Shown: positions 1 to 52,310 of the stretch, piece after piece
Layout of the letters: each line of letters opens with the position of its first letter
Position numbering within the stretch: the first letter of the stretch is position 1
Assembly (NCBI RefSeq): GCF_033954455.1
Contig: NZ_CP121473.1
Location: forward strand, 3,644,501 to 3,708,500
From: Thiorhodovibrio litoralis
GTDB taxonomy: Bacteria > Pseudomonadota > Gammaproteobacteria > Chromatiales > Chromatiaceae
DNA: 64,000 nucleotides
Direction: 5' to 3'
The notes under the pieces: model-generated
Database searches by the model: none
What the model saw: only the letters and a program-made list of their open reading frames with translations
What the model was told of the DNA's origin: nothing
Made by a program: the position numbers and the translations under genes

Positions 1-729
1 ACGCACATGCAGGTGCAAATTGGCGCCGACTGAATCATGTGGCGAAATGCTGTCGCGATCCGTCAGTTCCCAGGCGCGCGCGGTGAACCGATAGGGCTTG
101 GAGGTCAGCGCGCCGACGGGACAGAGGTCGATAATGTTGCCCGAGAGTTCATGGCTGACCGTATGCGCCACAAAGGTGCCGATACGCATATCTTCGCCGC
201 GCCCGGTGGCACCAAGCTCGCGCACACCCGCAATTTCGGCGCCGAAGCGCACGCATCTGGTGCAATGAATACAGCGCGTCATTTCGGTCGCGATCAGCGG
301 GCCGAGGTCTTCGTCCTGCACCACGCGCTTGCGCTCGCTGAAGCGCGAGACGTCCTCACCATAGCCCATGGACACGTCTTGCAACTCGCACTCCCCGCCC
401 TGATCGCAGATCGGGCAGTCGAGCGGATGGTTGATCAGCAGGAACTCCATGGTGCCGCGCTGCGCCTCGAGCGCCTTGTGTGAGCGTGTCAGCACCTTCA
501 TGCCATCGCCCACCGGCGTTGCGCAAGCCGGCACCGGCTTGGGGAAAGCCCGTCCGCCCTGCTCCGCCTCGACCAGGCACATGCGGCAGTTGGCCGCGAT
601 GGACAGCTTGGGGTGATAGCAAAAACGCGGGATGGCGATGCCCTCGCGGTCGGCGACCGCGATGATCATCTCGCCCGGCGTCGCCTCACAGGAGCGACCA
701 TCGATTTCCAGTGTGATCTTCTCGGACAT
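1..729 (-). CDS. nuoG: NADH-quinone oxidoreductase subunit G, N-terminal part (window edge)
   Basis: The first 243 codons of the large iron-sulfur subunit of complex I; the rest lies beyond the left edge. It starts with ATG at 729 and reads MSEKITLEIDG. The 2Fe-2S domain has Cys37, Cys48, Cys51 and Cys69. The HxxxCxxCxxxxxC cluster (His101, Cys105, Cys108, Cys114) binds N5. Cys153, 156, 159 and 203 (CIHCTRC, then CPVGAL) bind N4. The protein carries electrons from NuoE/F towards NuoB in the peripheral arm. It is the last visible gene of the nuoA-G operon and is separated from nuoF by an unusually long spacer of about 200 bp. Confidence 0.95.
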   Translation of the reverse strand, partial: MSEKITLEIDGRSCEATPGEMIIAVADREGIAIPRFCYHPKLSIAANCRMCLVEAEQGGRAFPKPVPACATPVGDGMKVLTRSHKALEAQRGTMEFLLINHPLDCPICDQGGECELQDVSMGYGEDVSRFSERKRVVQDEDLGPLIATEMTRCIHCTRCVRFGAEIAGVRELGATGRGEDMRIGTFVAHTVSHELSGNIIDLCPVGALTSKPYRFTARAWELTDRDSISPHDSVGANLHLHVR

Positions 730-932
730 CGCGCCCTTGCTATCTCGCTCGCTGGTCAGTTAATTCGTTCGCCAGTTGGGTCTGCGACCCGGGTTCGCTG
801 GCCCAATTTGCCAGTTCAAGTCGCTGGCCCAATTCGCTGGCCGGTCTTGTTGGCCGAATCGCCCTTTCCTGCTCGCCCGCGCGCATGAGCCTATGTGCGC
901 GCGGGCAAGACTTTGACGGCCAGCTTGCCGCC
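730..932. repeat. nuoF-nuoG spacer with degenerate short repeats
   Basis: A 203-bp spacer in an otherwise tightly packed operon. On the minus strand it repeats variants of GCCAGCGAATTGG and GCCAGCGACTTG several times between about 760 and 860. I see no start codon with a plausible gene. It could be an expanded repeat or hold an internal promoter for nuoG; nothing decides between these. Confidence 0.4.
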
Positions 933-2222
933 TCAGGCCGCCTCGACCATCGGTGTGCCATGGTCGATCAGATGCTCGAACTCATGGCGATAATGTTTCA
1001 GAAAGCTTTGTACCGGCATGGCGGCTGCATCGCCTAGCGCACAAATGGTGCGCCCGCCGATGCGGCCCGCCACGCTGTCGAGCAGCGCCAGATCCTGCAT
1101 GCGTCCCTGCCCGTGCAGGATGCGATCGAGCACCCGCGCCAGCCAGCCGGTTCCTTCCCGGCAGGGCGTGCATTGACCGCAGGACTCATGGGCATAAAAG
1201 TGCGCCAGATTGGCCAGCACCTTGACCATGCAGGTTCCCTTGGCGATGACAATCACCGCGCCCGAGCCCAGCATGGAGCCGGCCTTGGCGATGGAGTCAT
1301 AGTCCAGGTCGACGCCCATCATGATATGACCGGGCACCACGGGAACAGAGGAGCCACCGGGGATCACCGCTTTTAGCTCGCGCCCGTCTTTCACGCCACC
1401 GGCCAGCGCTAGCAGTTCGCTGAAAGGCGTGCCCAGCGGCACCTCGAAGTTCCCCGGCTTTTCGACATGCCCGGAAACCGAAAACAGTTTGGGTCCGCCA
1501 TTGTTCGGACGCCCCTGCTCGAGAAACCACTTCCCACCCTTCTCGAGGATGACCGGCACCGAGGCCAATGACTCGGTGTTGTTAATCGTGGTCGGCCGCC
1601 CAAACAAGCCGGCCTGGGCCGGGAACGGCGGTTTGTAGCGCGGCTGGCCCTTCTTGCCCTCAATCGACTCGAGCAGCGCAGTCTCCTCGCCGCAGATGTA
1701 GGCCCCGGCGCCGAGATGGCTGTAGAGATCGAAATCCACGCCCGAGTCGAGCACATTCTTGCCGAGCAGCCCGGCGGCATAGGCTTCTTCGAGTGCTCCC
1801 TCGAAGCGCGCGATGGGCTCGTAGAATTCGCCGCGAGTATAGTTGTAGCCAACGGTTGCGCCGATGCAATAGCCGGCGATGGCCATGCCCTCGATCAGCT
1901 GATGCGGGTTGTAGCGCAAAATATCACGGTCCTTGCAGGTACCGGGCTCGCCCTCGTCGGAATTGCACACGATGTATTTCTGCCCGGGCGCCTGGCGCGG
2001 CATGAAGCTCCACTTGAGTCCGGTCGGAAAGCCCGCCCCGCCGCGCCCGCGCAGGGCCGAAAGCTTCAACTCCTCGATCAGGTCGTGCGCACTGATTTTT
2101 TCGCGCAGAATCCGTTCCCACTGCTGATAGCCGCCCAGCGCGCGGTATTCCTCCAAGCGGTAGCGCCGCTCGGCCGGCAGGTGCATGGTGCGGAAGCAGA
2201 CAGTGTTCTGGTTTTCAACCAT
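933..2222 (-). CDS. nuoF: NADH-quinone oxidoreductase subunit F (NADH/FMN subunit)
   Basis: A 429-residue subunit that binds NADH and FMN and passes electrons to the Fe-S chain. The glycine-rich [10 protein letters not shown] (59-68) forms part of the FMN/NADH site, and [12 protein letters not shown] begins at 171. The N3 4Fe-4S cluster ligands are Cys348, Cys351, Cys354 (SCGQCTPC) and Cys394 (TICALGD). Length and all motifs match the family. It lies 82 bp downstream of nuoE on the minus strand. Confidence 0.97.
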
Positions 2223-2304
2223 GTTTTACAACCTTCACCGGATCGATACGTCGTGGTCGCTGCTTTAGGGTTCGCTGCTTTGTTTTGGCTGTTCCAGCGA
2301 TGCC

Positions 2305-2832
2305 CTAGTCGAGGCCATCGATCAGTTTCTCAAGCGTCGAGGGCGTCAGGCACTCGTGGTAGACCTTGTCGACCAGCACGGCGGGCGCATCCTTGCATGC
2401 CCCAAGGCACTCGAATTCTTTCAGGGTGAACTTGCCATCCTCGCTGGTCTGCCCGGGTGCGACGCCAAAACGCTCGCGGACATGTTCAATCAGCTCTTCG
2501 CTGCCGTTGAGCATGCAGGAGATGCTGTTGCACACACAGACCTTATGACGTCCGACCGGCTCGAGATCGTACATGCCATAGAAACTGGCCACCTCGTAGA
2601 CCGCCACCTCGGGCATGTCGAGGTAGGCCGCCACGTCGTCCATCAGCTCGCGCGTCAGCGAGCCGCCGTTGGCATCCTGCACCAGGGTCAGCGCCGGCAT
2701 GACCGCAGATTGTTTCCATTCCGGCGGATACTTGGCGACCTCCCGATCGATCGCGGCGCGAATGTCGTCGGTGAACAGACTGGATTTGTCGCGCTCATGC
2801 ATGACCGCCAGCGGAGCATTGCGAAAGCCCAT
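2305..2832 (-). CDS. nuoE: NADH-quinone oxidoreductase subunit E (24 kDa, 2Fe-2S)
   Basis: A 175-residue thioredoxin-fold subunit with the N1a 2Fe-2S cluster. The ligands are Cys101 and Cys106 (CNSISC) and Cys142 and Cys146 (CLGAC). Its ATG overlaps the nuoD stop by one base (TAATG), which implies translational coupling. It forms the NADH-oxidising module with NuoF and the N-terminus of NuoG. Confidence 0.97.
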   Translation of the reverse strand: MGFRNAPLAVMHERDKSSLFTDDIRAAIDREVAKYPPEWKQSAVMPALTLVQDANGGSLTRELMDDVAAYLDMPEVAVYEVASFYGMYDLEPVGRHKVCVCNSISCMLNGSEELIEHVRERFGVAPGQTSEDGKFTLKEFECLGACKDAPAVLVDKVYHECLTPSTLEKLIDGLD

Positions 2833-4091
2833 TAGCGGTCGACCTCCCCGAAGACGATATCCATGGTACCGATGATGGCCACCACGTCGGCCAGCATGTG
2901 GCCCCGGGACATTTCATCCAACGCCGACAAATGGACGAAGCCGGGCGCGCGCACCTTCAGCCGATAGGGCTTGTTGGCGCCGTCGGCGATGATGTAACAA
3001 CCGAACTCCCCCTTGGGCGCCTCGACCGCGGCATAGACCTCACCCGGCGGCGGACAGTAGCCCTCGGTGAAGAGCTTGAAGTGGTGAATCAGGGCTTCCA
3101 TGTCGTCTTTCATGTCGACACGCGCGGGTGGGGTCACCTTGTGATTTTCCACCATCACTGGGCCGGGATTGGCGCGCAGCCAGTCGATGCACTGCTTGAT
3201 GATGCGATTGGACTGACGCATCTCCTCCACCCGCACCAGATAGCGGTCGTAGCAGTCGCCATTGACGCCGACCGGGATGTCGAAATCCATCTTGTCGTAG
3301 GCCGCATAGGGCTGCTTCTTGCGCAAGTCCCACTCAACCCCGGAGCCGCGCAGCATCGGACCGGTGAAGCCCAGCGCCTGCGCACGCTCGCCGTCCACCA
3401 CGCCGATACCGACGGTGCGCTGCTTCCAGATGCGGTTGTCGGTCAACAGCGTTTCATACTCATCGACCAGCCCTGGGAAGCGCGTTGTGAAATCTTCGAT
3501 GAAGTCCAGCAGCGAGCCCTCGCGCGCCTTGTTCAGGCTGTGAAAATCGCGCTTGCTGTGCCACTTGGTGCTTTCTTCAGAGAACCGCGGCATCTTGCCG
3601 GGCAGATCCCGATAAAGACCACCGGGGCGGTAATAGGTCGCGTGCAGGCGCGCGCCCGAGACTGCCTCGTAGCAGTCCATCAGGTCCTCACGCTCGCGGA
3701 AGCAGTACAGAAACACACTCATGGCGCCGACATCAAGCGCATGGGCGCCAAGCCACATCAGATGATTGAGTATCCGCGTGATCTCATCGAACATGGTGCG
3801 GATGTACTGTGCCCGCTCCGGCGCCTGAATGCCGAGCAGCTTTTCGATGGCGCGCACATAGCCATGCTCGTTGCACATCATGGACACATAATCGAGGCGG
3901 TCCATGTAGCCGATGCTTTGATTGAAAGGCTTGGTCTCGGCCAGTTTTTCAGTGCCACGGTGCAGCAGGCCGATGTGCGGATCAGCCCGCTCGATCACCT
4001 CACCCGACATTTCGAGCACTAGGCGCAGCACGCCATGCGCGGCCGGATGCTGGGGGCCGAAATTCAGCGTGTAATTGCGAATCTCAGGCAT
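2832..4091 (-). CDS. nuoD: NADH-quinone oxidoreductase subunit D (49 kDa)
   Basis: A 419-residue subunit that lines the quinone site next to NuoB. I place the start at 4091 ([20 protein letters not shown]) because family homology begins exactly there. An upstream in-frame start at 4139 lies inside nuoC and adds unrelated residues. [12 protein letters not shown] is the family signature near the N-terminus. It overlaps the 3' end of nuoC by 8 bp and the nuoE start by 1 bp. NuoC and NuoD are separate genes here, not fused as in E. coli. Confidence 0.96.
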
Positions 4092-42202: not shown

Positions 42203-42552
42203 AACGGATTTGCCGTGTCATCCAACCGATCGGGCGTTGCAATCCGGCGCGTCGCCAGCTCGGTCAGGATCGCCGCCAGATAGTCCACGCACATCACCCC
42301 GGTGGTGGTGTCGTTGATGCTGGGCGACAGGACCTTAACAGCCACGTCAACGATCTGGCGGATACCCAAGGCAACATCCTGCTCCACCGTGCGCTGGCGA
42401 CTGATGACGTAGACCGCGTTGAGTCTGGCCGCCGTCGCTTGGTCCAGGTCACCCGGATCGAGCAGCGAGACCAGGGGGGTGCCCGCGATGACGAAATCCC
42501 CGACGCCGTGCTCCATCCGCCGGAGGGTGTCCTGGGTTCGGGCGATCTCCAG
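42199..42552 (-). pseudogene. DUF2254 membrane protein, C-terminal fragment
   Basis: From the transposon edge the minus strand reads LEIARTQDTLRRMEHGVGDF, RQRTVEQDVALGIRQIVDVA and LSPSINDTTTGVMCVDYL, the soluble C-terminal blocks of DUF2254 proteins. It continues directly from the fragment at 50711-51205 (GYVESLDADVLLE-IARTQD). The 3' end meets the ISAs1 remnant. The gene was split by the 8.2-kb nested transposon. Confidence 0.85.
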
Positions 42553-42616
42553 TGAGCCTGAGCAGACTATTTGCGGGAATCGGCCGCGATTCTGAGCAAA
42601 TTCAGTGAGGGAAAAC

Positions 42617-42660
42617 AAAAAACCCCCTCAAACAACTTGACGCAAGTTGTCCGAGAGGGC
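42617..42660 (-). terminator. Rho-independent terminator facing out of the transposon (outer copy)
   Basis: Read on the minus strand, a stem of CCCTC/GAGGG and CAACTTG/CAAGTTG is followed by TTTTTTGTTTT. It would stop antisense transcripts leaving the element leftwards. The same structure is at 45721-45764 in the inner copy with one base changed. Confidence 0.65.
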
Positions 42661-42693
42661 TGTCTCCGAATTTCGCCAAAAACCAGGAGACAG
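42660..42693 (+). promoter_or_regulatory. Hairpin that sequesters the ribosome-binding site of gene A (outer copy)
   Basis: CTGTCTCC (42660-42667) can pair with GGAGACAG (42686-42693), which contains the AGGAG ribosome site nine bases before the GTG start at 42699. Folding would hide the site and limit translation, a common way for mobile elements to restrain themselves or to ignore read-through transcripts. Conserved at 45764-45797. Confidence 0.6.
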
Positions 42694-42698
42694 TCCCA

Positions 42699-43268
42699 GT
42701 GTGTCACGCCTTTCTTGCCGACACGAACTTTTACCAACTGCTCACCCGGATCGACGAGTCGATTGCCGAGGAAGTCCGCGCGGGCGGCTGTGACTGCGGT
42801 GGTGCGTTGCACAGCGCCCGTTATCCGCGTAAGCCCCGAGGTGTTGTGCGTGGCGTCTTGGATGAGAGCTACCAGAGCCGTCTGAGTTTCTGCTGTGCCG
42901 CGGACGGGTGCCGGCGGCGCAGCACCCCGCCTTCCGTTCGGTTTCTGGGCCGCAAGGTCTATCTCGGGGTCATCGTCGTGCTGATTTCGGCCCTGCATGA
43001 CGGACTGAGCGCATCGCGTCGCCAGCGCTTGATCAAGACGCTCGGTGTCACCGTCCAAACCCTGCGGCGGTGGCAGCACTGGTGGCGTGAGCAGTTTGTG
43101 CAAACCCGCTGCTTTCGATCCTTGGCTGGTCTGTTGATGCCGCCGATCGCCACCGAGCACCTGCCAGGATCCCTGCTGGAAAAATTGAGCGCAAAAGCGT
43201 TGTCCGAGCGCGTCGTGCAACTGCTGATATTGATCGCCCCGAGCACGACAGCGACAGGCTCGCTGTAG
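42699..43268 (+). CDS. Transposon gene A: DUF6431-like zinc-ribbon/HTH protein (outer copy)
   Basis: A 189-residue protein from GTG 42699. N-terminal zinc-ribbon cysteines: Cys31 and Cys33 (CDCGG), then Cys65/66 and Cys71 (FCCAADGCRRR). The signature TPPSVRFLGRKVYLG follows, then a helix-turn-helix (LIKTLGVTVQTLRRWQHWW). It resembles DUF6431 proteins. As the first gene of the element it may bind the ends or regulate expression; that role is inferred. The inner-copy version differs at two residues (Gln13His, Asp/Cys in ALHDGL). Confidence 0.75.
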   Translation: MCHAFLADTNFYQLLTRIDESIAEEVRAGGCDCGGALHSARYPRKPRGVVRGVLDESYQSRLSFCCAADGCRRRSTPPSVRFLGRKVYLGVIVVLISALHDGLSASRRQRLIKTLGVTVQTLRRWQHWWREQFVQTRCFRSLAGLLMPPIATEHLPGSLLEKLSAKALSERVVQLLILIAPSTTATGSL

Positions 43269-43361
43269 GGCAACGCCAACCCGCAGAAGACCTCATCGCG
43301 CCGCTGGGCGGCGCCTTCTAGACTCCCGGTGATGTGTGAAACAACTGGGAGGTGAAGACGA

Positions 43362-44819
43362 ATGTCCGATGACAACGGCCTCGGTGATCCCGATGGTTGG
43401 GCGCGGTTGCGCTTTGCCATTATTGGTCCTTTATTGGCTGATCCTGCGCCGGCGAACGCGCTGGGCGCGCGGCTGAAGGCGCTAGCGGCCAAGTCATGGC
43501 GTCATCCGGTGACTGGGCGGGCGGTCAGTTTTAGCTTTGGGACCTTGGAGCGCTGGTATTACCTCGCACGCGATGCCCAAGACCCGGTGACCGCACTGCG
43601 CCCGCGCCGGCGCAGCGATGCCGGGGAGCAGCGCGCGCTGAGTCCGCGCCTGATGGATGCGGTGCAAGCCCAGTACCGCGACTACCCCGGTTGGACGGTG
43701 CAGCTGCATTACGACAACCTCGCCGCCTTGTGCGCGGGCGATCAGACCCTGGGGCCGCTGCCCTCCTATGCCACCGTGCGCCGCTTCATGAAGCGCGCGG
43801 GCTTGCACCGCCGGCGTGTCCCGGCGCGCAAGACGCCGGGCGCTGAACAGGCCGCGCGGCGCCTGGAGGCCTGCGAGGTGCGCAGCTATGAAGCCCAGTA
43901 TGTCCATGCCTTGTGGCATCTGGACTTTCATCATGGCTCGCGCAAAGTCCTCACCCGGGGTGGCGTCTGGGTCAAGCCCCTGCTGCTGGCGGTCATTGAC
44001 GATCACTCCCGCCTGATCTGCCATCTGCAGTGGTACCTCGATGAGACCACCGAGACCTTGGTCCATGGCCTGGGGCAGGCGTTGCACAAGCGCGGGCTGC
44101 CGCGCGCCTTGATGAGCGATAACGGCGCGGCAATGCAGGCCGAGGAGTTCACCGCCGGATTGCACGCCCTGGGCATCCTCCATGAGCCGACCCTGCCGTA
44201 CAGCCCGTATCAGAACGCCAAGCAGGAGCGCTTCTGGGCCACGCTGGAAGGCCGCCTGATGGCGATGCTCAAGGACATCGCGGAGCTGAGTCTGCCTCAG
44301 CTCAACACCCTCACTCAGGCGTGGGTGGAGCAGGAGTACCACCGCAAGGTCCACAGTGAGACCGCCGCCACGCCGCTTGCGCGTCTTCTCGATGCGCCCA
44401 ACGTGGGGCGCCCCTGTCCGGACAGCGAGCAGGTCCGCGCCGCTTTTCGTTGTCGCGTCCAACGCCGTCAGCGCCGCAGCGATGGGACGCTCAGCCTGGC
44501 GGGCAAGCGCTTCGAGGTGCCGGCGCGCTTGCGTCACCTTGAGCAACTGCATATCGCTTATGCCCGCTGGGATCTGAGTGCTGTGGACGTGGTTGATCCC
44601 CACTCGGGCGCCATCCTCTGCCGCCTCTATCCCCTCGATAAAGCCGCCAATGCCTCCGGGCAGCGTCGGCGCCTTGAGCCCGCCGGCGCACCGCCACCGC
44701 CATCACAACGCGCCACGACGCTGCCACCGTTGCTGCGCGACTTGCTCGCCGAGTATGCCGCCACCGGTCTGCCGCCGGCCTATCTGCCAAAACACGATGA
44801 CCTGGAATCCAGTCGATGA
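43362..44819 (+). CDS. Transposon gene B: DDE integrase-type transposase (outer copy)
   Basis: A 485-residue rve-fold transposase. Catalytic triad Asp188 (ALWHLDFHHG), Asp253 (ALMSDNGAAM) and Glu289 (YQNAKQERFW), a DDx35E spacing. An N-terminal helix-turn-helix region (VSFSFGTLERWYYLARD) and a C-terminal beta-barrel-like segment (LSLAGKRFEVPARL) give the TniA/IS481-like architecture. GGGAGG precedes the ATG. The stop overlaps the start of gene C by 4 bp (ATGA). Confidence 0.92.
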   Translation: MSDDNGLGDPDGWARLRFAIIGPLLADPAPANALGARLKALAAKSWRHPVTGRAVSFSFGTLERWYYLARDAQDPVTALRPRRRSDAGEQRALSPRLMDAVQAQYRDYPGWTVQLHYDNLAALCAGDQTLGPLPSYATVRRFMKRAGLHRRRVPARKTPGAEQAARRLEACEVRSYEAQYVHALWHLDFHHGSRKVLTRGGVWVKPLLLAVIDDHSRLICHLQWYLDETTETLVHGLGQALHKRGLPRALMSDNGAAMQAEEFTAGLHALGILHEPTLPYSPYQNAKQERFWATLEGRLMAMLKDIAELSLPQLNTLTQAWVEQEYHRKVHSETAATPLARLLDAPNVGRPCPDSEQVRAAFRCRVQRRQRRSDGTLSLAGKRFEVPARLRHLEQLHIAYARWDLSAVDVVDPHSGAILCRLYPLDKAANASGQRRRLEPAGAPPPPSQRATTLPPLLRDLLAEYAATGLPPAYLPKHDDLESSR

Positions 44820-45712
44820 ACAAGACCCTGCTGGCCCTCTATGGACTGAAGTTCAATCCGTTCTCCCCGGAGCTGCCGACGGCGGCACTGCATCGCAGCG
44901 CGCCGGTGGAGCAGTTTTGCTGGCGCATCGAGCAGAGCCTGATCCGCGAAGGCGGTTTTGCGCTCATTCAAGGTGATCCGGGTACCGGCAAGAGTGCGGT
45001 ACTGCGCCTGCTCGATGAGCGTCTGCGCCAGCTGCCCGATATCAGCGTTGGGGCGCTCACGCATCCCAGCTCGAAGGTGGCGGACTTCTACCGCGAGATG
45101 GGCGATCTGTTCGCCGTTGACCTCAAGCCCCATAACCGCTGGGGTGGCTTCAAGATCCTGCGCGAGCGCTGGCTGGCGCATCTGGAGACGACGCTGTTGC
45201 GCCCGGTGTTGCTCATCGACGAGGCGCAGGAGATGCATCCGACGGTGCTCAATGAGCTGCGTCTGCTGACCTCCATGCAGTTCGATTCGCGCACGTTGTT
45301 GAGCGTGATCCTGGCCGGCGATGGCCGCCTGGCGACCAAGCTGCGCCGTGAGGAGTTGCTGCCGCTGGGCAGTCGTATCCGTACGCGCCTGAGTATGGAG
45401 TATGCCAGTCGCGAGGCGCTGGTCGCCTGCCTGGAGCATTTACAACACAGTGCCGGCAATGCGAGTCTGATGAGCGCAGGGCTGATGAAGACGCTCGCTG
45501 AGCATGCGTTGGGCAATTATCGCGTGCTCACGACCATGGCGGCAGAATTGCTGGCGCAGGCTGCTCGGCTCGAACGCGCGCAGCTCGATGAACAACTCTA
45601 CCTTGAGGTGTTTGGTTCAGCGGCGGGCAACGCCCGCCAACGCCCGAGTGCCAGGGTGAGCCTGAGCAGACTATTTGCGGGAATCGGCCGCGATTCTGAG
45701 CAAATTCAGTGA
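44816..45712 (+). CDS. Transposon gene C: ExeA/TniB-like AAA+ ATPase, C-terminus altered by nested insertion
   Basis: The intact form has 283 residues; here the last residues are replaced (SARVSLSRLFAGIGRDSEQI) because the inner copy begins at 45657. Walker A GDPGTGKS (53-60) and Walker B VLLIDEAQ (131-138) are intact. The N-terminus LLALYGLKFNPFSPELP is typical of ExeA-like ATPases. By analogy with TniB/TnsC it would choose target DNA and activate the transposase. It may still function, since only the last four residues are lost. Confidence 0.88.
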   Translation: MNKTLLALYGLKFNPFSPELPTAALHRSAPVEQFCWRIEQSLIREGGFALIQGDPGTGKSAVLRLLDERLRQLPDISVGALTHPSSKVADFYREMGDLFAVDLKPHNRWGGFKILRERWLAHLETTLLRPVLLIDEAQEMHPTVLNELRLLTSMQFDSRTLLSVILAGDGRLATKLRREELLPLGSRIRTRLSMEYASREALVACLEHLQHSAGNASLMSAGLMKTLAEHALGNYRVLTTMAAELLAQAARLERAQLDEQLYLEVFGSAAGNARQRPSARVSLSRLFAGIGRDSEQIQ

Positions 45713-45763
45713 GGGAAAACAAAAAACCCCCTCAAACAACTTGACGCAAGTTGCCCGAGAGGG

Positions 45764-45797
45764 CTGTCTCCGAATTTCGCCAAAAACCAGGAGACAG
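45764..45797 (+). promoter_or_regulatory. Hairpin that sequesters the ribosome-binding site of gene A (inner copy)
   Basis: Exact counterpart of the outer-copy structure, with CTGTCTCC pairing with GGAGACAG over the AGGAG site before GTG 45803. The outward terminator lies just upstream (45721-45764). Confidence 0.6.
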
Positions 45798-45802
45798 TCC
45801 CA

Positions 45803-46372
45803 GTGTGTCACGCCTTTCTTGCCGACACGAACTTTTACCACCTGCTCACCCGGATCGACGAGTCGATTGCCGAGGAAGTCCGCGCGGGCGGCTGTGACTG
45901 CGGTGGTGCGTTGCACAGCGCCCGTTATCCGCGTAAGCCCCGAGGTGTTGTGCGTGGCGTCTTGGATGAGAGCTACCAGAGCCGTCTGAGTTTCTGCTGT
46001 GCCGCGGACGGGTGCCGGCGGCGCAGCACCCCGCCTTCCGTTCGGTTTCTGGGCCGCAAGGTCTATCTCGGGGTCATCGTCGTGCTGATTTCCGCCCTGC
46101 ATTGCGGGCTGAGCGCATCGCGTCGCCAGCGCTTGATCAAGACGCTCGGTGTCACCGTCCAAACCCTGCGGCGGTGGCAGCACTGGTGGCGTGAGCAGTT
46201 TGTGCAAACCCGCTGCTTTCGATCCTTGGCTGGTCTGTTGATGCCGCCGATCGCCACCGAGCACCTGCCAGGATCCCTGCTGGAAAAATTGAGCGCAAAA
46301 GCGTTGTCCGAGCGCGTCGTGCAACTGCTGATATTGATCGCCCCGAGCACGACAGCGACAGGCTCGCTGTAG
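45803..46372 (+). CDS. Transposon gene A: DUF6431-like zinc-ribbon/HTH protein (inner copy)
   Basis: A 189-residue near-identical twin of the outer gene A (His for Gln13; ALHCGL for ALHDGL). Same zinc-ribbon cysteines and HTH. Followed by gene B after 93 bp; that gap contains TAGACTCCCGG and a good ribosome site. Confidence 0.75.
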   Translation: MCHAFLADTNFYHLLTRIDESIAEEVRAGGCDCGGALHSARYPRKPRGVVRGVLDESYQSRLSFCCAADGCRRRSTPPSVRFLGRKVYLGVIVVLISALHCGLSASRRQRLIKTLGVTVQTLRRWQHWWREQFVQTRCFRSLAGLLMPPIATEHLPGSLLEKLSAKALSERVVQLLILIAPSTTATGSL

Positions 46373-46465
46373 GGCAACGCCAACCCGCAGAAGACCTCAT
46401 CGCGCCGCTGGGCGGCGCCTTCTAGACTCCCGGTGATGTGTGAAACAACTGGGAGGTGAAGACGA

Positions 46466-47923
46466 ATGTCCGATGACAACGGCCTCGGTGATCCCGATGG
46501 TTGGGCGCGGTTGCGCTTTGCCATTATTGGTCCTTTATTGGCTGATCCTGCGCCGGCGAACGCGCTGGGCGCGCGGCTGAAGGCGCTAGCGGCCAAGTCA
46601 TGGCGTCATCCGGTGACTGGGCGGGCGGTCAGTTTTAGCTTTGGGACCTTGGAGCGCTGGTATTACCTCGCACGCGATGCCCAAGACCCGGTGACCGCAC
46701 TGCGCCCGCGCCGGCGCAGCGATGCCGGGGAGCAGCGCGCGCTGAGCCCGCGCCTGATGGAGGCCGTACAGGCGCAATACCGCGACTACCCCGGTTGGAC
46801 GGTGCAGCTGCATTACGACAACCTCGCCGCCTTGTGCGCGGGCGATGAAACCCTGGGGCCGCTGCCCTCCTATGCCACCGTGCGCCGCTTCATGAAGCGC
46901 GCGGGCCTGCACCGCCGGCGTGTCCCGGCGCGCAAGACACCCGGGGCCGAGCAGGCCGCGCGGCGCCTGGAGGCCTGCGAGGTGCGCAGCTATGAAGCCC
47001 AGTATGTCCATGCCTTGTGGCATCTGGACTTTCATCATGGCTCGCGCAACGTCCTCACCCGGGGTGGCGTCTGGGTCAAGCCCCTGCTGCTGGCGGTCAT
47101 CGACGATCACTCGCGCCTGATCTGCCATCTGCAGTGGTACCTCGATGAGACCACCGAGACCTTGGTGCATGGTCTGGGACAGGCGTTGCACAAGCGCGGG
47201 CTGCCGCGCGCCCTGATGAGCGATAACGGCGCGGCAATGCAGGCCGAGGAATTCACCGCCGGATTGCATGCGCTGGGCATCCTCCACGAGCCGACCCTGC
47301 CGTACAGCCCGTATCAGAACGCCAAGCAGGAGCGCTTCTGGGCCACGCTGGAAGGCCGCCTGATGGCGATGCTTAAGGGGCTGGAGGAGCTGAGCCTGCA
47401 GCGGCTCAACACCCTCACTCAGGCGTGGGTGGAGCAGGAGTACCACCGCAAGGTCCACAGTGAGACCGCCGCCACGCCGCTTGCGCGTCTTCTCGATGCG
47501 CCCAACGTGGGGCGCCCCTGTCCGGACAGCGAGCAGGTCCGCGCCGCTTTTCGTTGTCGCGTCCAACGCCGTCAGCGCCGCAGCGATGGGACGCTCAGCC
47601 TGGCGGGCAAGCGCTTCGAGGTGCCGGCGCGCTTGCGTCACCTTGAGCAACTGCATATCGCTTATGCCCGCTGGGATCTGAGTGCTGTGGACGTGGTTGA
47701 TCCCCACTCGGGCGCCATCCTCTGCCGCCTCTATCCCCTCGATAAAGCCGCCAATGCCTCCGGGCAGCGTCGGCGCCTTGAGCCCGCCGGCGCACCGCCA
47801 CCGCCATCACAACGCGCCACGACGCTGCCACCGTTGCTGCGCGACTTGCTCGCCGAGTATGCCGCCACCGGTCTGCCGCCGGCCTATCTGCCAAAACACG
47901 ATGACCTGGAATCCAGTCGATGA
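46466..47923 (+). CDS. Transposon gene B: DDE transposase (inner copy)
   Basis: 485 residues with the same triad (Asp188, Asp253, Glu289). It differs from the outer copy only in scattered sites between about 46745 and 47410, for example MEAVQ for MDAVQ, DETLG for DQTLG, SRNVL for SRKVL and GLEELSLQR for DIAELSLPQ, with many silent changes there. Outside that patch the two genes are almost identical. Confidence 0.92.
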   Translation: MSDDNGLGDPDGWARLRFAIIGPLLADPAPANALGARLKALAAKSWRHPVTGRAVSFSFGTLERWYYLARDAQDPVTALRPRRRSDAGEQRALSPRLMEAVQAQYRDYPGWTVQLHYDNLAALCAGDETLGPLPSYATVRRFMKRAGLHRRRVPARKTPGAEQAARRLEACEVRSYEAQYVHALWHLDFHHGSRNVLTRGGVWVKPLLLAVIDDHSRLICHLQWYLDETTETLVHGLGQALHKRGLPRALMSDNGAAMQAEEFTAGLHALGILHEPTLPYSPYQNAKQERFWATLEGRLMAMLKGLEELSLQRLNTLTQAWVEQEYHRKVHSETAATPLARLLDAPNVGRPCPDSEQVRAAFRCRVQRRQRRSDGTLSLAGKRFEVPARLRHLEQLHIAYARWDLSAVDVVDPHSGAILCRLYPLDKAANASGQRRRLEPAGAPPPPSQRATTLPPLLRDLLAEYAATGLPPAYLPKHDDLESSR

Positions 47924-48771
47924 ACAAGACCCTGCTGGCCCTCTATGGACTGAAGTTCAATCCGTTCTCCCCGGAGCTGCCGACGGCGGCACTGCATCGC
48001 AGCGCGCCGGTGGAGCAGTTTTGCTGGCGCATCGAGCAGAGCCTGATCCGCGAAGGCGGTTTTGCGCTCATTCAAGGTGATCCGGGTACCGGCAAGAGTG
48101 CGGTACTGCGCCTGCTCGATGAGCGTCTGCGCCAGCTGCCCGATATCAGCGTTGGGGCGCTCACGCATCCCAGCTCGAAGGTGGCGGACTTCTACCGCGA
48201 GATGGGCGATCTGTTCGCCGTTGACCTCAAGCCCCATAACCGCTGGGGTGGCTTCAAGATCCTGCGCGAGCGCTGGCTGGCGCATCTGGAGACGACGCTG
48301 TTGCGCCCGGTGTTGCTCATCGACGAGGCGCAGGAGATGCATCCGACGGTGCTCAATGAGCTGCGTCTGCTGACCTCCATGCAGTTCGATTCGCGCACGT
48401 TGTTGAGCGTGATCCTGGCCGGCGATGGCCGCCTGGCGACCAAGCTGCGCCGTGAGGAGTTGCTGCCGCTGGGCAGTCGTATCCGTACGCGCCTGAGTAT
48501 GGAGTATGCCAGTCGCGAGGCGCTGGTCGCCTGCCTGGAGCATTTACAACACAGTGCCGGCAATGCGAGTCTGATGAGCGCAGGGCTGATGAAGACGCTC
48601 GCTGAGCATGCGTTGGGCAATTATCGCGTGCTTACGACCATGGCGGCAGAATTGCTGGCGCAGGCTGCTCGGCTCGAACGCGCGCAGCTCGATGAACAAC
48701 TCTACCTTGAGGTGTTTGGTTCAGCGGCGGGCAACGCCCGCCAACGCCCGAGTGCCAGGGCGGGCGCCTGA
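47920..48771 (+). CDS. Transposon gene C: ExeA/TniB-like AAA+ ATPase (inner copy, intact)
   Basis: A 283-residue ATPase ending PSARAGA. Walker A (53-60) and Walker B (131-138) as in the outer copy. It overlaps gene B by 4 bp and gene D by 1 bp (TGATG), so B, C and D form one translationally coupled unit. Likely partner of the DDE transposase in target selection. Confidence 0.9.
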   Translation: MNKTLLALYGLKFNPFSPELPTAALHRSAPVEQFCWRIEQSLIREGGFALIQGDPGTGKSAVLRLLDERLRQLPDISVGALTHPSSKVADFYREMGDLFAVDLKPHNRWGGFKILRERWLAHLETTLLRPVLLIDEAQEMHPTVLNELRLLTSMQFDSRTLLSVILAGDGRLATKLRREELLPLGSRIRTRLSMEYASREALVACLEHLQHSAGNASLMSAGLMKTLAEHALGNYRVLTTMAAELLAQAARLERAQLDEQLYLEVFGSAAGNARQRPSARAGA

Positions 48772-49580
48772 TGAGCCGCTTGAGCGCTGAGCGCCCGCAC
48801 CAGGCCATGACAGCGGCAAGACACACCGCCGTGATGCTTGAGGCATGGCACGACGCTGGCATCGTGCGTGCCGATTTGGCGGTGCGCACCGCCAAGGCGA
48901 CGATGCTGTGGTTCCATGATCGCTCTTTGGATCAGCTTCCGTTGGGGCTGGCCAGAGCGCGCAATGTCCAACAGGCCGATATTTATATCCGTCCAGCCCG
49001 CGGCTATCCCTGGCCAATGGTGTTTCTCGATGATGTCGCACGGCCGATGGCGCAGCGCATCGCTCGGCACTATGCGGCCCTGGTGGTGCAGACTTCGACG
49101 CTCGGGGGCTGCCACCTGTGGCTACGGCTGACCCGCGCGCTCGATGAGGCGCAGCGCTGTGATGTGCAGCGTTGGCTGATCCCGCGCGTTGGCGCCGATC
49201 CGGGCTCGGTCTCCGGTGAGCACCTCGGTCGGCTCGCCGGGATGAAGAATGCCAAGCGTGGCGGGGAGTGGGTCAATGTCCTTCGGCGACCAAGCCCGCA
49301 GGAGCGCGTCTGGGATCCAACTCCGGCCTTGCCAACGATGGCTCCGGCTCCGCCGCCAGTCGTCAACTGCGCTCCACGGGCGCGCTTATCCACCGGGGAT
49401 CCGTCCGAATCCGCCCGCGAATGGGGCTGGGTCTGCGGCGCTCTTGAGGCGGGCCTTGCACCGACCACGGTCTACCAGCGCTTGCTCGAGCGCGCGTCCC
49501 CGCGTCGCGGAGCCGATGCCGAGCGCTATGCCCGCTACACCCTCGCTCGCGCCATTCGCCAGAGCGCTAGAGGCAACTGA
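48771..49580 (+). CDS. Transposon gene D: RepB-like primase-domain protein (inner copy)
   Basis: A 269-residue protein resembling the RepB-type archaeo-eukaryotic primase domain. ADIYIRPARGYPWPMV leads to the acidic pair LDD (86-88), then VVQTSTLGGCHLWLRL (114-117 region) and VSGEHLGRLAGMKN (148-160). The C-terminus is a helical domain (EWGWVCGALEAGLAPTTVYQ). A primase in a small DDE transposon is unusual; it could prime repair or replication of transposition intermediates. That function is inferred. Confidence 0.75.
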   Translation: MSRLSAERPHQAMTAARHTAVMLEAWHDAGIVRADLAVRTAKATMLWFHDRSLDQLPLGLARARNVQQADIYIRPARGYPWPMVFLDDVARPMAQRIARHYAALVVQTSTLGGCHLWLRLTRALDEAQRCDVQRWLIPRVGADPGSVSGEHLGRLAGMKNAKRGGEWVNVLRRPSPQERVWDPTPALPTMAPAPPPVVNCAPRARLSTGDPSESAREWGWVCGALEAGLAPTTVYQRLLERASPRRGADAERYARYTLARAIRQSARGN

Positions 49581-49732
49581 ACCCGCTGCGTCTCTCCCCC
49601 CTCAGGGGGGGAGCGTGGTTCACGATTCCGGCTTCCCGCTGTCGGCCAGTAACGGCCCCCGTGATCCCACACGCATTCCATGTCCTTCAAATGGCTTGGA
49701 AATGGGTCCCGCAATTATCGTGATTACGCTCA
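49581..49732 (+). other. Right-end region of the inner transposon copy
   Basis: 152 bp without a gene. A strong stem CTCCCCCC/GGGGGGGAG at about 49596-49614 lies 15 bp after the primase-like stop and may end transcription, though no T-run follows. The rest leads into the right terminal repeat, TCCCGCAATTATCGTG onward. Confidence 0.5.
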
Positions 49733-49748
49733 CCAGGGCGGGCGCCTG

Positions 49749-50558
49749 ATGAGCCGCTTGAGCGCTGAGCGCCCGCACCAGGCCATGACAGCGGCAAGAC
49801 ACACCGCCGTGATGCTTGAGGCATGGCACGACGCTGGCATCGTGCGTGCCGATTTGGCGGTGCGCACCGCCAAGGCGACGATGCTGTGGTTCCATGATCG
49901 CTCTTTGGATCAGCTTCCGTTGGGGCTGGCCAGAGCGCGCAATGTCCAACAGGCCGATATTTATATCCGTCCAGCCCGCGGCTATCCCTGGCCAATGGTG
50001 TTTCTCGATGATGTCGCACGGCCGATGGCGCAGCGCATCGCTCGGCACTATGCGGCCCTGGTGGTGCAGACTTCGACGCTCGGGGGCTGCCACCTGTGGC
50101 TACGGCTGACCCGCGCGCTCGATGAGGCGCAGCGCTGTGATGTGCAGCGTTGGCTGATCCCGCGCGTTGGCGCCGATCCGGGCTCGGTCTCCGGTGAGCA
50201 CCTCGGTCGGCTCGCCGGGATGAAGAATGCCAAGCGTGGCGGGGAGTGGGTCAATGTCCTTCGGCGACCAAGCCCGCAGGAGCGCGTCTGGGATCCAACT
50301 CCGGCCTTGCCAACGATGGCTCCGGCTCCGCCGCCAGTCGTCAACTGCGCTCCACGGGCGCGCTTATCCACCGGGGATCCGTCCGAATCCGCCCGCGAAT
50401 GGGGCTGGGTCTGCGGCGCTCTTGAGGCGGGCCTTGCACCGACCACGGTCTACCAGCGCTTGCTCGAGCGCGCGTCCCCGCGTCGCGGAGCCGATGCCGA
50501 GCGCTATGCCCGCTACACCCTCGCTCGCGCCATTCGCCAGAGCGCTAGAGGCAACTGA
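49749..50558 (+). CDS. Transposon gene D: RepB-like primase-domain protein (outer copy)
   Basis: 269 residues, identical in translation to the inner copy as far as I compared. It is now separated from outer gene C by the nested element, so it loses its translational coupling. The open frame extends upstream into the inner right end (49680), but ATG 49749 is the true start by comparison. Confidence 0.75.
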   Translation: MSRLSAERPHQAMTAARHTAVMLEAWHDAGIVRADLAVRTAKATMLWFHDRSLDQLPLGLARARNVQQADIYIRPARGYPWPMVFLDDVARPMAQRIARHYAALVVQTSTLGGCHLWLRLTRALDEAQRCDVQRWLIPRVGADPGSVSGEHLGRLAGMKNAKRGGEWVNVLRRPSPQERVWDPTPALPTMAPAPPPVVNCAPRARLSTGDPSESAREWGWVCGALEAGLAPTTVYQRLLERASPRRGADAERYARYTLARAIRQSARGN

Positions 50559-50710
50559 ACCCGCTGCGTCTCTCCCCCCTCAGGGGGGAAGCGTGGTTCA
50601 CGATTCCGGCTTCCCGCTGTCGGCCAGTAACGGCCCCCGTGATCCCACACGCATTCCATGTCCTTCAAATGGCTTGGAAATGGGTCCCGCAATTATCGTG
50701 ATTACGCTCA

Positions 50711-51205
50711 CTCCAGCAGCACGTCGGCGTCGAGGCTCTCGACGTAGCCGCTCTTGCTGGCCGCAACAGCCAACCAGGGCAGCGTGGCGAGCGCGCTCGC
50801 CGGGTCGCCGTCGGCGTTCTCATCGTCATCGGCTCCCAAGGCATCGGGAAACAGATGCTCCACGGCCTCGTGGGTCTCCTCTGTAGCCGTGGAAACGATG
50901 CTGGATGCCTGGATGCTGGTGGCAATGTGATGGATGAAGTGGATCAACACCGCGATGCCGAAGAAGGCGAGGATCAGGGCGACCAGGACCGCCAGCGTTG
51001 GGACGAAGACCCCTTCGTCACCCCCACGAATCGTCCGCAGAACCACCAAGCAGTAGGCAAAAATGCCGAGAAAGACGCCGAGTACCCACTGGTCGACGCG
51101 GTCGCGCATGAAGTTGCGAATGACGCGCGAACTGTACTGACTGGAGGTTAGCGAGAGGGCCACGAGGGTGATCGAGAACACCAGCCCGGCCACCGTGATC
51201 ATGGA
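50711..51205 (-). pseudogene. DUF2254 membrane protein, middle fragment
   Basis: The fragment reads [40 protein letters not shown], a TM-rich stretch and VLIHFIHHIATSIQ, then ASKSGYVESLDADVLLE before the transposon supplies a stop (TGA of its terminal repeat). It joins in frame to 42199-42552. The N-terminus beyond 51205 has been replaced by IS21 sequence. Confidence 0.85.
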
Positions 51206-52310
51206 GCTGGCTGCCGGTCAGACGGCAGAGGTGATCGATCGCACCACCGGCGAAATCCGCACCGCCCAGATCTTCGTGGCGGTACTGGGGGCATCGAACG
51301 ACACCTACGCCGAAGCCACCTGGACGCAGAACCTGTCGGATTGGACCGGCTCCCACGTGCGCGCCTTGGCGTTCCTCGGCGGCGTGCCGGAAGTACTGGT
51401 CCCCGACAACCTCGCCAGTGGGGTGAGCAAAGCCCATCGTTACGAGCCCGACATCAACCCCACCTACGCCGAGCTGGCCGCGCATTACGGTGTTGCGGTG
51501 GTCCCGGCCCGGGTGCGCAAGCCTCGGGATAAGGCCAAGGTCGAAGTCGGTGTGCAAGTGGTTGAACGCTGGATACTCGCCGCCCTGCGCCGGCGCACGT
51601 TTTTCTCCCTGCGCGAGCTCAATGACGCCATCGCCGAACGCCTGGCTTGGCTCAACCAGCGCCCGTTCAAAAAGCTCCCCGGCTCGCGCAAAGAGGCGTT
51701 TGAGGCCATCGACCGCCCGGCACTGCGTCCCTTACCCGCCGAGCCCTACGTCTTCGCCACCTGGAAGACAGCGCGGGTGAACATCGACTACCACGTCGAG
51801 GTTGAGGGGCATTACTACTCCGTGCCCTACGCCCTGGTGAAGAAGACCCTGGATGTGCGCTTGAGCGAGCGCACCATCGAGTGCTTCCACCGCAACCAGC
51901 GCGTCGCCAGCCATGCGCGCTCCTCCCTCAAAGGCCGTCATACCACGGTGACCGCGCACATGCCCAAGGCGCATCAGAAGTACGCCGAATGGACGCCTGA
52001 ACGCCTGATTCGTTGGGCCGAGGAGACCGGACCGGCAACCGCCGCGGTAGTGGCCAACATCCTCGCCTCCCGTGCCCACCCCCAGCAGGGCTTTCGCTCC
52101 TGTTTGGGCTTGCTGCGCCTAGCCGAGCGCTACAGCCCCAAGCGCCTGGAAGCGGCCTGTGAACGCGCTCTGCGCCTGAATGCCTGCCGCTACAAACACA
52201 TCGCCTCGATGCTCGAGCGCGGTCTGGATCGCCACAACCCGCCCGTTCAACAGTCCCTCGATCTGCCCAGCGCGCATGAGCATCTGCGCGGGGCGGAGTA
52301 TTTCCACTAA
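51206..52310 (+). pseudogene. istA: IS21 transposase IstA, 5' truncated
   Basis: Homology begins at [20 protein letters not shown], in the middle of the catalytic domain just after the first Asp. The second Asp ([11 protein letters not shown]) and Glu ([16 protein letters not shown]) are present, and the C-terminus is complete. The N-terminal HTH and first catalytic Asp are lost, so it cannot transpose by itself. The ORF upstream of 51206 belongs to DUF2254 antisense. Confidence 0.88.

Follow-up and report, generated by a model that had tools for sequence, protein, structure and literature searches.

What might a gene related to a plasmid primase be doing in a transposon? The question is raised by a stretch of 64,000 nucleotides from the chromosome of Thiorhodovibrio litoralis (contig NZ_CP121473.1, positions 3,644,501 to 3,708,500; hereafter the window), in which a 4,076-bp transposon with four genes, encoding the proteins P1 to P4, lies inside another copy of itself. 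This window element is almost certainly a Tn6049-type transposon whose fourth slot, behind the ATPase gene, is filled by a primase of the RepB' type. On sequence comparison, what is unusual here is the fourth gene, genes 1 to 3 being the core of the already named but little-studied Tn6049 type. We propose, with a probability of about 0.45, that slot 4 supplies a replication-start function for replicative transposition, P4 priming at the strand-transfer forks.

A Tn6049-type element inserted into itself

The inner copy is complete and is lodged inside a second copy, which has the same length if the insert and one CCAGGG are not counted (Table 1). Both have TGAGC...GCTCA termini, the 26-bp ends being imperfect inverted repeats with 19 of 26 positions identical (alignment count), and each is bordered by its own exact 6-bp duplication, CTCCAG for the outer and CCAGGG for the inner copy, as had been noted from the letters alone. 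Because the two copies differ at 44 of 4,076 positions and have separate duplications, an assembly echo or a tandem duplication was ruled out. The outer copy interrupts a DUF2254 membrane-protein gene, whose flanking parts match profile positions 56-212 and 216-326, and a genome of the same genus (G002) has the matching empty site, an uninterrupted DUF2254 gene. The two 300-bp flanks with a single CTCCAG align to this gene without gaps (600 bp, 81.5% identity), and the event was therefore a true insertion with a 6-bp duplication. Lengths, termini, duplications and empty site thus bear out the self-insertion of a four-gene transposon put forward in the original prediction. The inner copy was placed at the extreme end of the outer ATPase gene, whose last codons it altered and from which it separated gene 4.

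P1 is a zinc-ribbon/helix-turn-helix (HTH) protein, whose relatives are annotated as "transposase" or hypothetical and, for the distant ones, as DUF6431. The DUF6431 likeness suggested earlier was supported as a distant similarity: P1 aligned with the DUF6431-annotated first genes of distant transposase-ATPase elements at an hhalign probability of 90.6% (E 1.3e-6), and the Pfam DUF6431 model gave no match to P1 itself. P2 matched rve in Pfam (E 3.8e-11) and, in its catalytic region, the IS481 family model NF033577 (1.8e-39; 136 bits against a curated cut-off of 224). Three sequences all have D188, D253 and E289, with 35 residues separating the last two, and P2 therefore carries the DD35E triad, as anticipated. 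P3 is an ExeA-type ATPase that matches AAA_22 (2.4e-20); it had been called ExeA/TniB-like, of which the ExeA part held and the TniB part did not, neither Pfam TniB nor IstB matching P3 at E up to 1. Pfam TnsA, TniQ and resolvase models also gave no match among the four open reading frames (ORFs) at E up to 1. Among the PHROG families, P2 matched phage transposases (1.1e-43) and P3 matched "DNA transposition protein" (3e-16).

The best plasmid relatives of P2 came from Paraburkholderia, from Cupriavidus metallidurans and related species, and from Pseudomonas aeruginosa pHS87a. Relative to Tn6049, identity is about 60% over 94% of the length for P2 and about 45% for P1. The elements of C. metallidurans pMOL30 and P. 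aeruginosa pHS87a both have the order P1-P2-P3 followed by a short ORF; an end search gave 3,517 bp for each, with duplications of 6 bp on pMOL30 and 4 bp on pHS87a. It should be noted that these records do not carry the name Tn6049, the tie being its published presence on both replicons and the matching 12-bp end. Passages of earlier reports describe Tn6049 as a 3.5-kb element with 12 copies in strain CH34 and an ATPase gene named gspA (PMC2864759), with 12-bp ends and a 4-bp duplication on pHS87a (PMC4739549), and with a transposition module that "could not be categorized" (PMC6210171). A new unnamed family was therefore rejected, genes 1 to 3 being homologous to those of Tn6049 and equally ordered. 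The original prediction could not match the gene set to a named family and held that an earlier description under a name would speak against it; such a description exists for three of the four genes, and only the fourth departs.

The window element thus shares with Tn6049 the order of zinc-ribbon/HTH protein, DDE transposase, ExeA/"gspA" ATPase and fourth gene, a high copy number and short target duplications, and its ends are loosely comparable (TG(A/T)GC type). It differs in size and in gene 4 (4.08 kb with a RepB'-type primase of 269 amino acids (aa), against 3.5 kb with a 90-aa ORF4). The ends were expected to be constant from copy to copy; TGAGC recurs in a relative present in the genome G025, but Tn6049 has TGTGC, so ends vary between members of the family. 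In a transposase tree built with a quick method (102 rows, L200 and L201 left out; long branches, arbitrary root), Tn6049 and the window element fell in one clade of 87 rows with a Shimodaira-Hasegawa-like approximate likelihood-ratio test (SH-aLRT) support of 100. Among the named genome loci, which are the best 80 of 240 relatives, P1, P2 and P3 were found together in 76, P2 and P3 in 3, and P2 only in 1. Transposase matches at E 0.001 were found in 16 of the 92 genomes of relatives that were searched, and P3 matches at E 1e-50 in 3 of 398 genomes of the phylum, the genome under study being included in both counts; in one of them (G699), little contig sequence follows P3. Viral contigs, scanned by pattern, revealed two distant transposase relatives and no relative of P4 or of the helicase RepA discussed below.

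Other known systems resemble the window element in part. Elements of the IS481 family usually end in TGT, whereas the window element ends in TGAGC, has several genes including an ATPase, and encodes a P2 that scores below the curated cut-off of the family. The catalytic region of P2 and the modal 6-bp, variable-length duplication (6 bp in 16 of 27 copies) are common to both; a passage of PMC10045372 gives IS481 duplications as 2-15 bp, mostly 6. With Mu, Tn7, Tn5053 and IS21, the window element shares the two-component logic of a DDE transposase with an AAA+ partner, but the matches to TniB, IstB, TnsA, TniQ and resolvase are lacking, as said above, and, unlike in Mu, Tn7 and Tn5053, there is no sign of strict target immunity.

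The fourth gene and its slot

Profiles and alignments showed P4 to be a homologue of RepB', the IncQ/RSF1010 primase, with the catalytic aspartates kept. A three-sequence P4 profile matched the RSF1010 RepB' structures 3h25 and 3h20 in PDB (E 4.2e-12 and 8.9e-12, respectively). Residues D87, D88 and D143 are invariant in all six aligned sequences, IncQ1 RepB among them, and align by position with RepB' D77, D78 and D134, which are named as catalytic in part of PMC4434180. The RepB-like primase recognised earlier by eye was thereby supported. With P4 as a query, tblastn against plasmids returned 149 records, the best 30 at 32% over half of P4, and the one that was examined is IncQ1 RepB. The C-terminal helices (residues 211-268), which stand in place of the helix bundle of RepB, were the best modelled part of P4; Foldseek with the second P4 model ranked RepB' 3h25 and 3h20 first (1.7e-4 and 1.2e-3), although this low-confidence model deserves little weight. 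Relative to G002, the ratio of nonsynonymous to synonymous substitution rates (dN/dS) is 0.22 for P4 (from residue 13), 0.18 for P1, 0.11 for P2 (first 371 codons only) and 0.08 for P3, values at which P4 is judged to be under purifying constraint.

What usually occupies the slot is a small protein. Using a hidden Markov model (HMM) built for the purpose, we found a small ORF behind the ATPase in 65 of the 76 relatives with sequence beyond P3; four loci were left out of this count, either because the contig ends less than 150 bp from the end of P3 (L075, L086 and L141) or because P3 is absent (L137). These small proteins measure 45-96 aa, with a median of 76 (66 ORFs, including that of G025). 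Of the other 11 relatives, L078 and L131 have a RepA-type helicase and L145 has an unrelated protein of 118 aa; in the remaining eight no ORF4 could be recognised, and two of these, L074 and L118, carry an ORF of comparable size. The 118-aa protein (L145, 3640-3993), from an element of the Binatia, had no Pfam match above cut-off and is possibly another replacement of the small ORF. The 90-aa ORF4 of Tn6049 is not matched by the HMM either. At many of these loci, the fourth gene starts within the end of the P3 gene or closely behind it.

The window element lacks the small ORF4 behind its ATPase gene and has the RepB'-type primase instead, as do the copies in G002. A degraded copy in another genus (G538) also retains P4, with pieces of P1 and P2 and no P3 match. 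The nearest relative found, L066, is a single metagenome contig that starts inside the element; it aligns to positions 53-3060 (79%) and 4039-4076 (82%) of the inner copy, with a 59-aa ORF between the two blocks. Because the clade of the window element and G002 (support 99) is sister to L066 (support 100) in the transposase tree, and L066 has this 59-aa ORF, the swap of the small ORF4 for P4 is best placed after the split from L066.

A second replication enzyme of the RSF1010 type was found in the same slot of other lineages. In L078 (Rokuibacteriota) and L131 (Myxococcales), the start of the fourth gene overlaps the end of P3 and its product is an AAA_25 protein; that of L078 matched AAA_25 at 2.2e-34, and its sole PDB match at E up to 0.01 was RSF1010 RepA (1g8y, 1.4e-8). 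With an E limit of 1e-30, a search of 235 Myxococcota genomes with the RepA-type protein returned 13 places, spread over 9 genomes. Ten of these, including the L131 place itself (L159), are immediately preceded by a P3-type ATPase and part of a P2-type transposase; L179, L181 and L185 are not. The RepA-bearing elements include a Tn6049-like one (L191, 51% identity in P2) and more distant ones (about 30% or less in P2), and the tree, whose branches are long and whose root is arbitrary, needs two or more changes on well-supported branches to account for the RepA label. The genome of L145 has four RepA-type places in long frames, with no P2 or P3 match beside them, and tblastn of the RepA-type protein against plasmids gave no match at E 1e-5.

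Inverted repeats resembling GGGAAC/GGAAC were seen by eye right behind the RepA-type gene in L191, L194, L197 and L200, and are possibly binding sites; L199 has TTATGTGACC repeats there instead.

Proposed role of the fourth slot

Phage Mu depends on PriA-dependent loading by its host, and the handover from transposon to replisome has been worked out mainly for Mu. For the window element, replicative transposition with host-dependent resolution is plausible, because a Mu/Tn7-like transposase-ATPase pair is present and no resolvase was recognised. In the scheme that we favour, the DD35E transposase P2 would work with P3, as the MuB/TnsC/IstB part, and with P1. P2 and P3 would link the ends of the element to the target, and on the exposed single strands of the resulting forked strand-transfer intermediates P4 would lay primers, making the copying of the element less dependent on the loading of the host primosome. 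The small fourth gene of the family would have been exchanged for that of P4 in an ancestor of the lineage of the window element, and the RepA-type helicase of other lineages would serve the identical step from the unwinding side. With a loose target choice and apparently no strict immunity (see below), such an element could land in or next to itself. A replication-start role is suggested by the presence, in several lineages, of an IncQ-type replication enzyme behind the AAA+ gene. The wider claim, that Tn6049-type and related elements keep a dedicated replication-start slot, filled by RepB' in the window lineage or by RepA in Rokuibacteriota and Myxococcota, is more doubtful, though possible.

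Several observations weigh against a priming role for P4. Its score against Pfam RepB_primase is 22.6 bits, just under the curated cut-off of 24.3, its structure models are poor (predicted local distance difference test, pLDDT, of 46 and 54), and its motif II has His where RepB' proteins, according to a passage of PMC5862659, have Gln. An ssi-like priming site was not found; the 3' tail that follows gene 4 (49590-49732) folds, as a single strand, more stably than its shuffles (z -3.30 on the plus and -2.50 on the minus strand). P4 is also rare: it was found in 3 of 210 genomes of the host's family and in 3 of 369 of the class, the host being included each time and the other two in the class reaching at most 35-36% and lying away from P1-P3, in none of the 80 named loci, and in none of 235 Myxococcota genomes (a search without positive control). 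Because of this rarity, the Tn6049-type family does not need P4, and the small ORF4 of most relatives is neither primase nor helicase. Finally, both G002 copies (L056 and L057) share a deletion that breaks the P2 frame while P4 stays open, so a partnership of P4 with the transposase is not required.

A search of the class with the RepB_primase family gave 11 places in 10 of 339 genomes, none beside P1-P3 apart from L212, which adjoins a weak 35-residue P3 match (0.003); this search would miss P4-like genes, because P4 itself is not listed at its E limit. Two places in the host genome itself (G000, C1, 1228835 and 4199659) have a RepB_primase domain inside open frames of 937 aa, alike in score, and no P1-P3 match in the flanks examined.

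The rarity of P4 and its persistence beside a broken transposase would be expected if it were a passenger with no role in transposition, acquired when chance recombination placed a gene of an IncQ-like plasmid between the ATPase gene and the right end; relatives without P4 do reach several copies per genome, as Tn6049 (12 in CH34) and the G025 element (5) show. The way in which P4 is built into the element argues otherwise, as its gene overlaps that of P3 (TGATG) and takes the place of ORF4 with the right end kept, and so does its maintenance, P4 being open in every copy of the chromosome at a dN/dS of 0.22. Chance carriage also does not predict a second RSF1010-type enzyme, RepA, in the slot of other lineages, and we consider it unlikely. 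Tn7-like elements keep their target selectors directly behind the AAA+ gene, and RepA and RepB' both act on single-stranded DNA. P4 and the RepA-type proteins might thus guide the ATPase, in the manner of TnsE, towards replication forks or plasmids, a reading that fits the position of the fourth gene directly behind the AAA+ gene. The copies lie farther from dnaA than a uniform distribution would place them (mean relative distance 0.63, one-sided P 0.008 by simulation with copies taken as independent), but this can also reflect selection against insertions near the origin. Only 14 of 27 copies are co-oriented with replication (dnaA spans the start of the record; the terminus was assumed to lie opposite), and because such an orientation bias is absent, TnsE-like fork targeting was rejected as the main explanation and appears distinctly unlikely.

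Both slot-4 enzymes being homologues of IncQ replication enzymes, an excised circle could instead replicate autonomously, with P4 or RepA initiating as in IncQ plasmids, and the GGGAAC/GGAAC repeats that several Myxococcota loci show, by eye, after the RepA gene would suit such a form. IncQ plasmids replicate with RepC alongside RepA and RepB'. The four genes encode no RepC-like initiator or relaxase, no tandem repeat was found inside the window element, and, in contrast to plasmid replication, each enzyme occurs here singly behind a transposase-ATPase pair; autonomous replication is accordingly improbable. It is more improbable still that the small ORF4, P4 and the RepA-type proteins can replace one another as regulators of P3 or as anti-host factors, their enzyme activities being irrelevant. 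They do share a slot, whose gene often begins within the end of the P3 gene or shortly after it, but the catalytic aspartates of P4 are invariant in all six sequences, and the PADLOC anti-phage models matched neither P4 nor the L078 RepA-type protein at E up to 1e-3. A defence cargo was likewise rejected, PADLOC giving one weak P3 match (mad8, 2.1e-5) over part of the ATPase domain.

If the priming role of slot 4 is correct, transposase-ATPase elements would furnish the strand-transfer intermediate with part of a replisome of their own, unlike Mu, which relies on its host. A transposon with its own primase and its RepA-bearing sister elements would then suit tests of element-encoded replication start, and Tn6049 gains a family picture, in which three core genes are widespread and the fourth can be exchanged. 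Among the matches listed for open PubMed Central (PMC) full texts, we found no description of a transposase-ATPase transposon with RepB' or RepA, nor of a transposon-encoded primase, which is weak evidence of absence; the word "transposon" is absent from the main text of a survey of mobile-element primases (PMC5862659).

Dispersed copies and other features

The host chromosome (5.47 Mb, one contig) has 27 near-identical copies of the element, of which 26 are uninterrupted and full-length and one is the split outer copy. All four frames are open in every copy when the two parts of the outer one are joined; unjoined, that copy has an altered ATPase tail. The copies represent 22 distinct sequences. 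Their 97 variable columns (element columns 98-3955) form a block mosaic of haplotypes; among 80 two-state sites, 1,648 of the 3,160 pairs failed the four-gamete test, and no fewer than 8 exchange intervals were counted. Mosaic and failures together point to frequent exchange, in which dispersed copies would recombine with or convert one another.

With the flanks of all 27 copies collected, as the original prediction had proposed, its 6-bp duplication proved to be the modal length (16 copies) rather than a general one: lengths of 7, 5 and 4 bp occur in 3, 2 and 3 copies, respectively, and the remaining 3 copies have at most 3 bp. These last three do not pair with each other as recombination products, and the single 5-bp coincidence among poorly duplicated copies is that of the left flank of L023 with the right flank of L002. 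Of the 16 six-base duplications, 14 have a pyrimidine at base 2 and 15 have a purine at base 5; the target preference is thus weak and symmetrical (N-Y-N-N-R-N), and target choice is loose. The five copies of the G025 relative (65% identity in P2) have duplications of 5, 5, 4, 5 and 5 bp, with the flanks read by eye.

Besides the nested copies, two pairs of copies lie close together, one 227 bp apart (3212504-3216579 and 3216807-3220882) and the other 1.6 kb apart (3252401-3256476 and 3258059-3262134). Three pairs were thus observed with less than 6 kb from start to start, a limit chosen after inspection of the data, where a mean of 0.77 was expected (P of 3 or more, 0.04). Because the nested copy and these pairs exceed chance, strict or long-range target immunity is unlikely, and the absence of strict immunity read earlier from the self-insertion is indirectly upheld by the spacing of copies.

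Just 5' of gene 1, a predicted hairpin (Table 1; 42657-42697 in the outer copy) buries a Shine-Dalgarno-like GGAGA and may block translation of read-through transcripts. None of 200 shuffles was equally stable (z -3.15 for 45700-45820). The identical stem is predicted in G002 (z -3.38), and a comparable but weaker one in L066 (z -2.17, 6 of 200 shuffles equally stable).

Table 1. Features of the nested copies, in window positions
Feature	Position	Strand	Basis or remark
Left target duplication of outer copy, CTCCAG	42547-42552		Exact repeat; empty site in G002
Outer copy, left part, 3,104 bp	42553-45656	+	
Outer copy gene 1 (P1, 189 aa, zinc-ribbon/HTH)	42699-43268	+	Open frame; copies compared
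Outer copy gene 2 (P2, 485 aa, DD35E transposase)	43362-44819	+	
Outer copy gene 3 (P3, ATPase), 298-aa frame, last codons replaced from inner copy	44816-45712	+	
Left target duplication of inner copy, CCAGGG	45651-45656		
Inner copy, complete, 4,076 bp, ends TGAGC...GCTCA	45657-49732	+	
Hairpin GGGCTGTCTCC...GGAGACAGTCCC just 5' of gene 1 start	45761-45801	+	Folding against shuffles
Gene 1 (P1, 189 aa, zinc-ribbon/HTH)	45803-46372	+	
Gene 2 (P2, 485 aa, transposase; D188, D253, E289)	46466-47923	+	
Gene 3 (P3, 283 aa, ExeA/AAA_22-type ATPase; ATGA overlap with gene 2)	47920-48771	+	
Gene 4 (P4, 269 aa, RepB'-type primase; TGATG overlap with gene 3)	48771-49580	+	
Right target duplication of inner copy, CCAGGG	49733-49738		
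Outer copy, right part, 972 bp	49739-50710	+	
Outer copy gene 4 (P4), intact, severed from gene 3 by inner copy	49749-50558	+	
Right target duplication of outer copy, CTCCAG	50711-50716		

Tn6049-like fragments stand in tandem on three contigs of the genome G018 (C155 54666-58409, C116 17977-19958 and C158 3579-5827; L058, L063 and L064), at spacings of 789, 838 and 1006 bp, which may be an assembly artefact or real tandem growth. Elsewhere in the window, a transposase with Mu-transpos_C_2 and rve domains, which we take to be IS21-like, lies near the outer copy (51168-52310), and the minus strand at 25678-25833 matches the Rfam group II intron model D1-D4-3 at its gathering score (32.4 against 32 bits).

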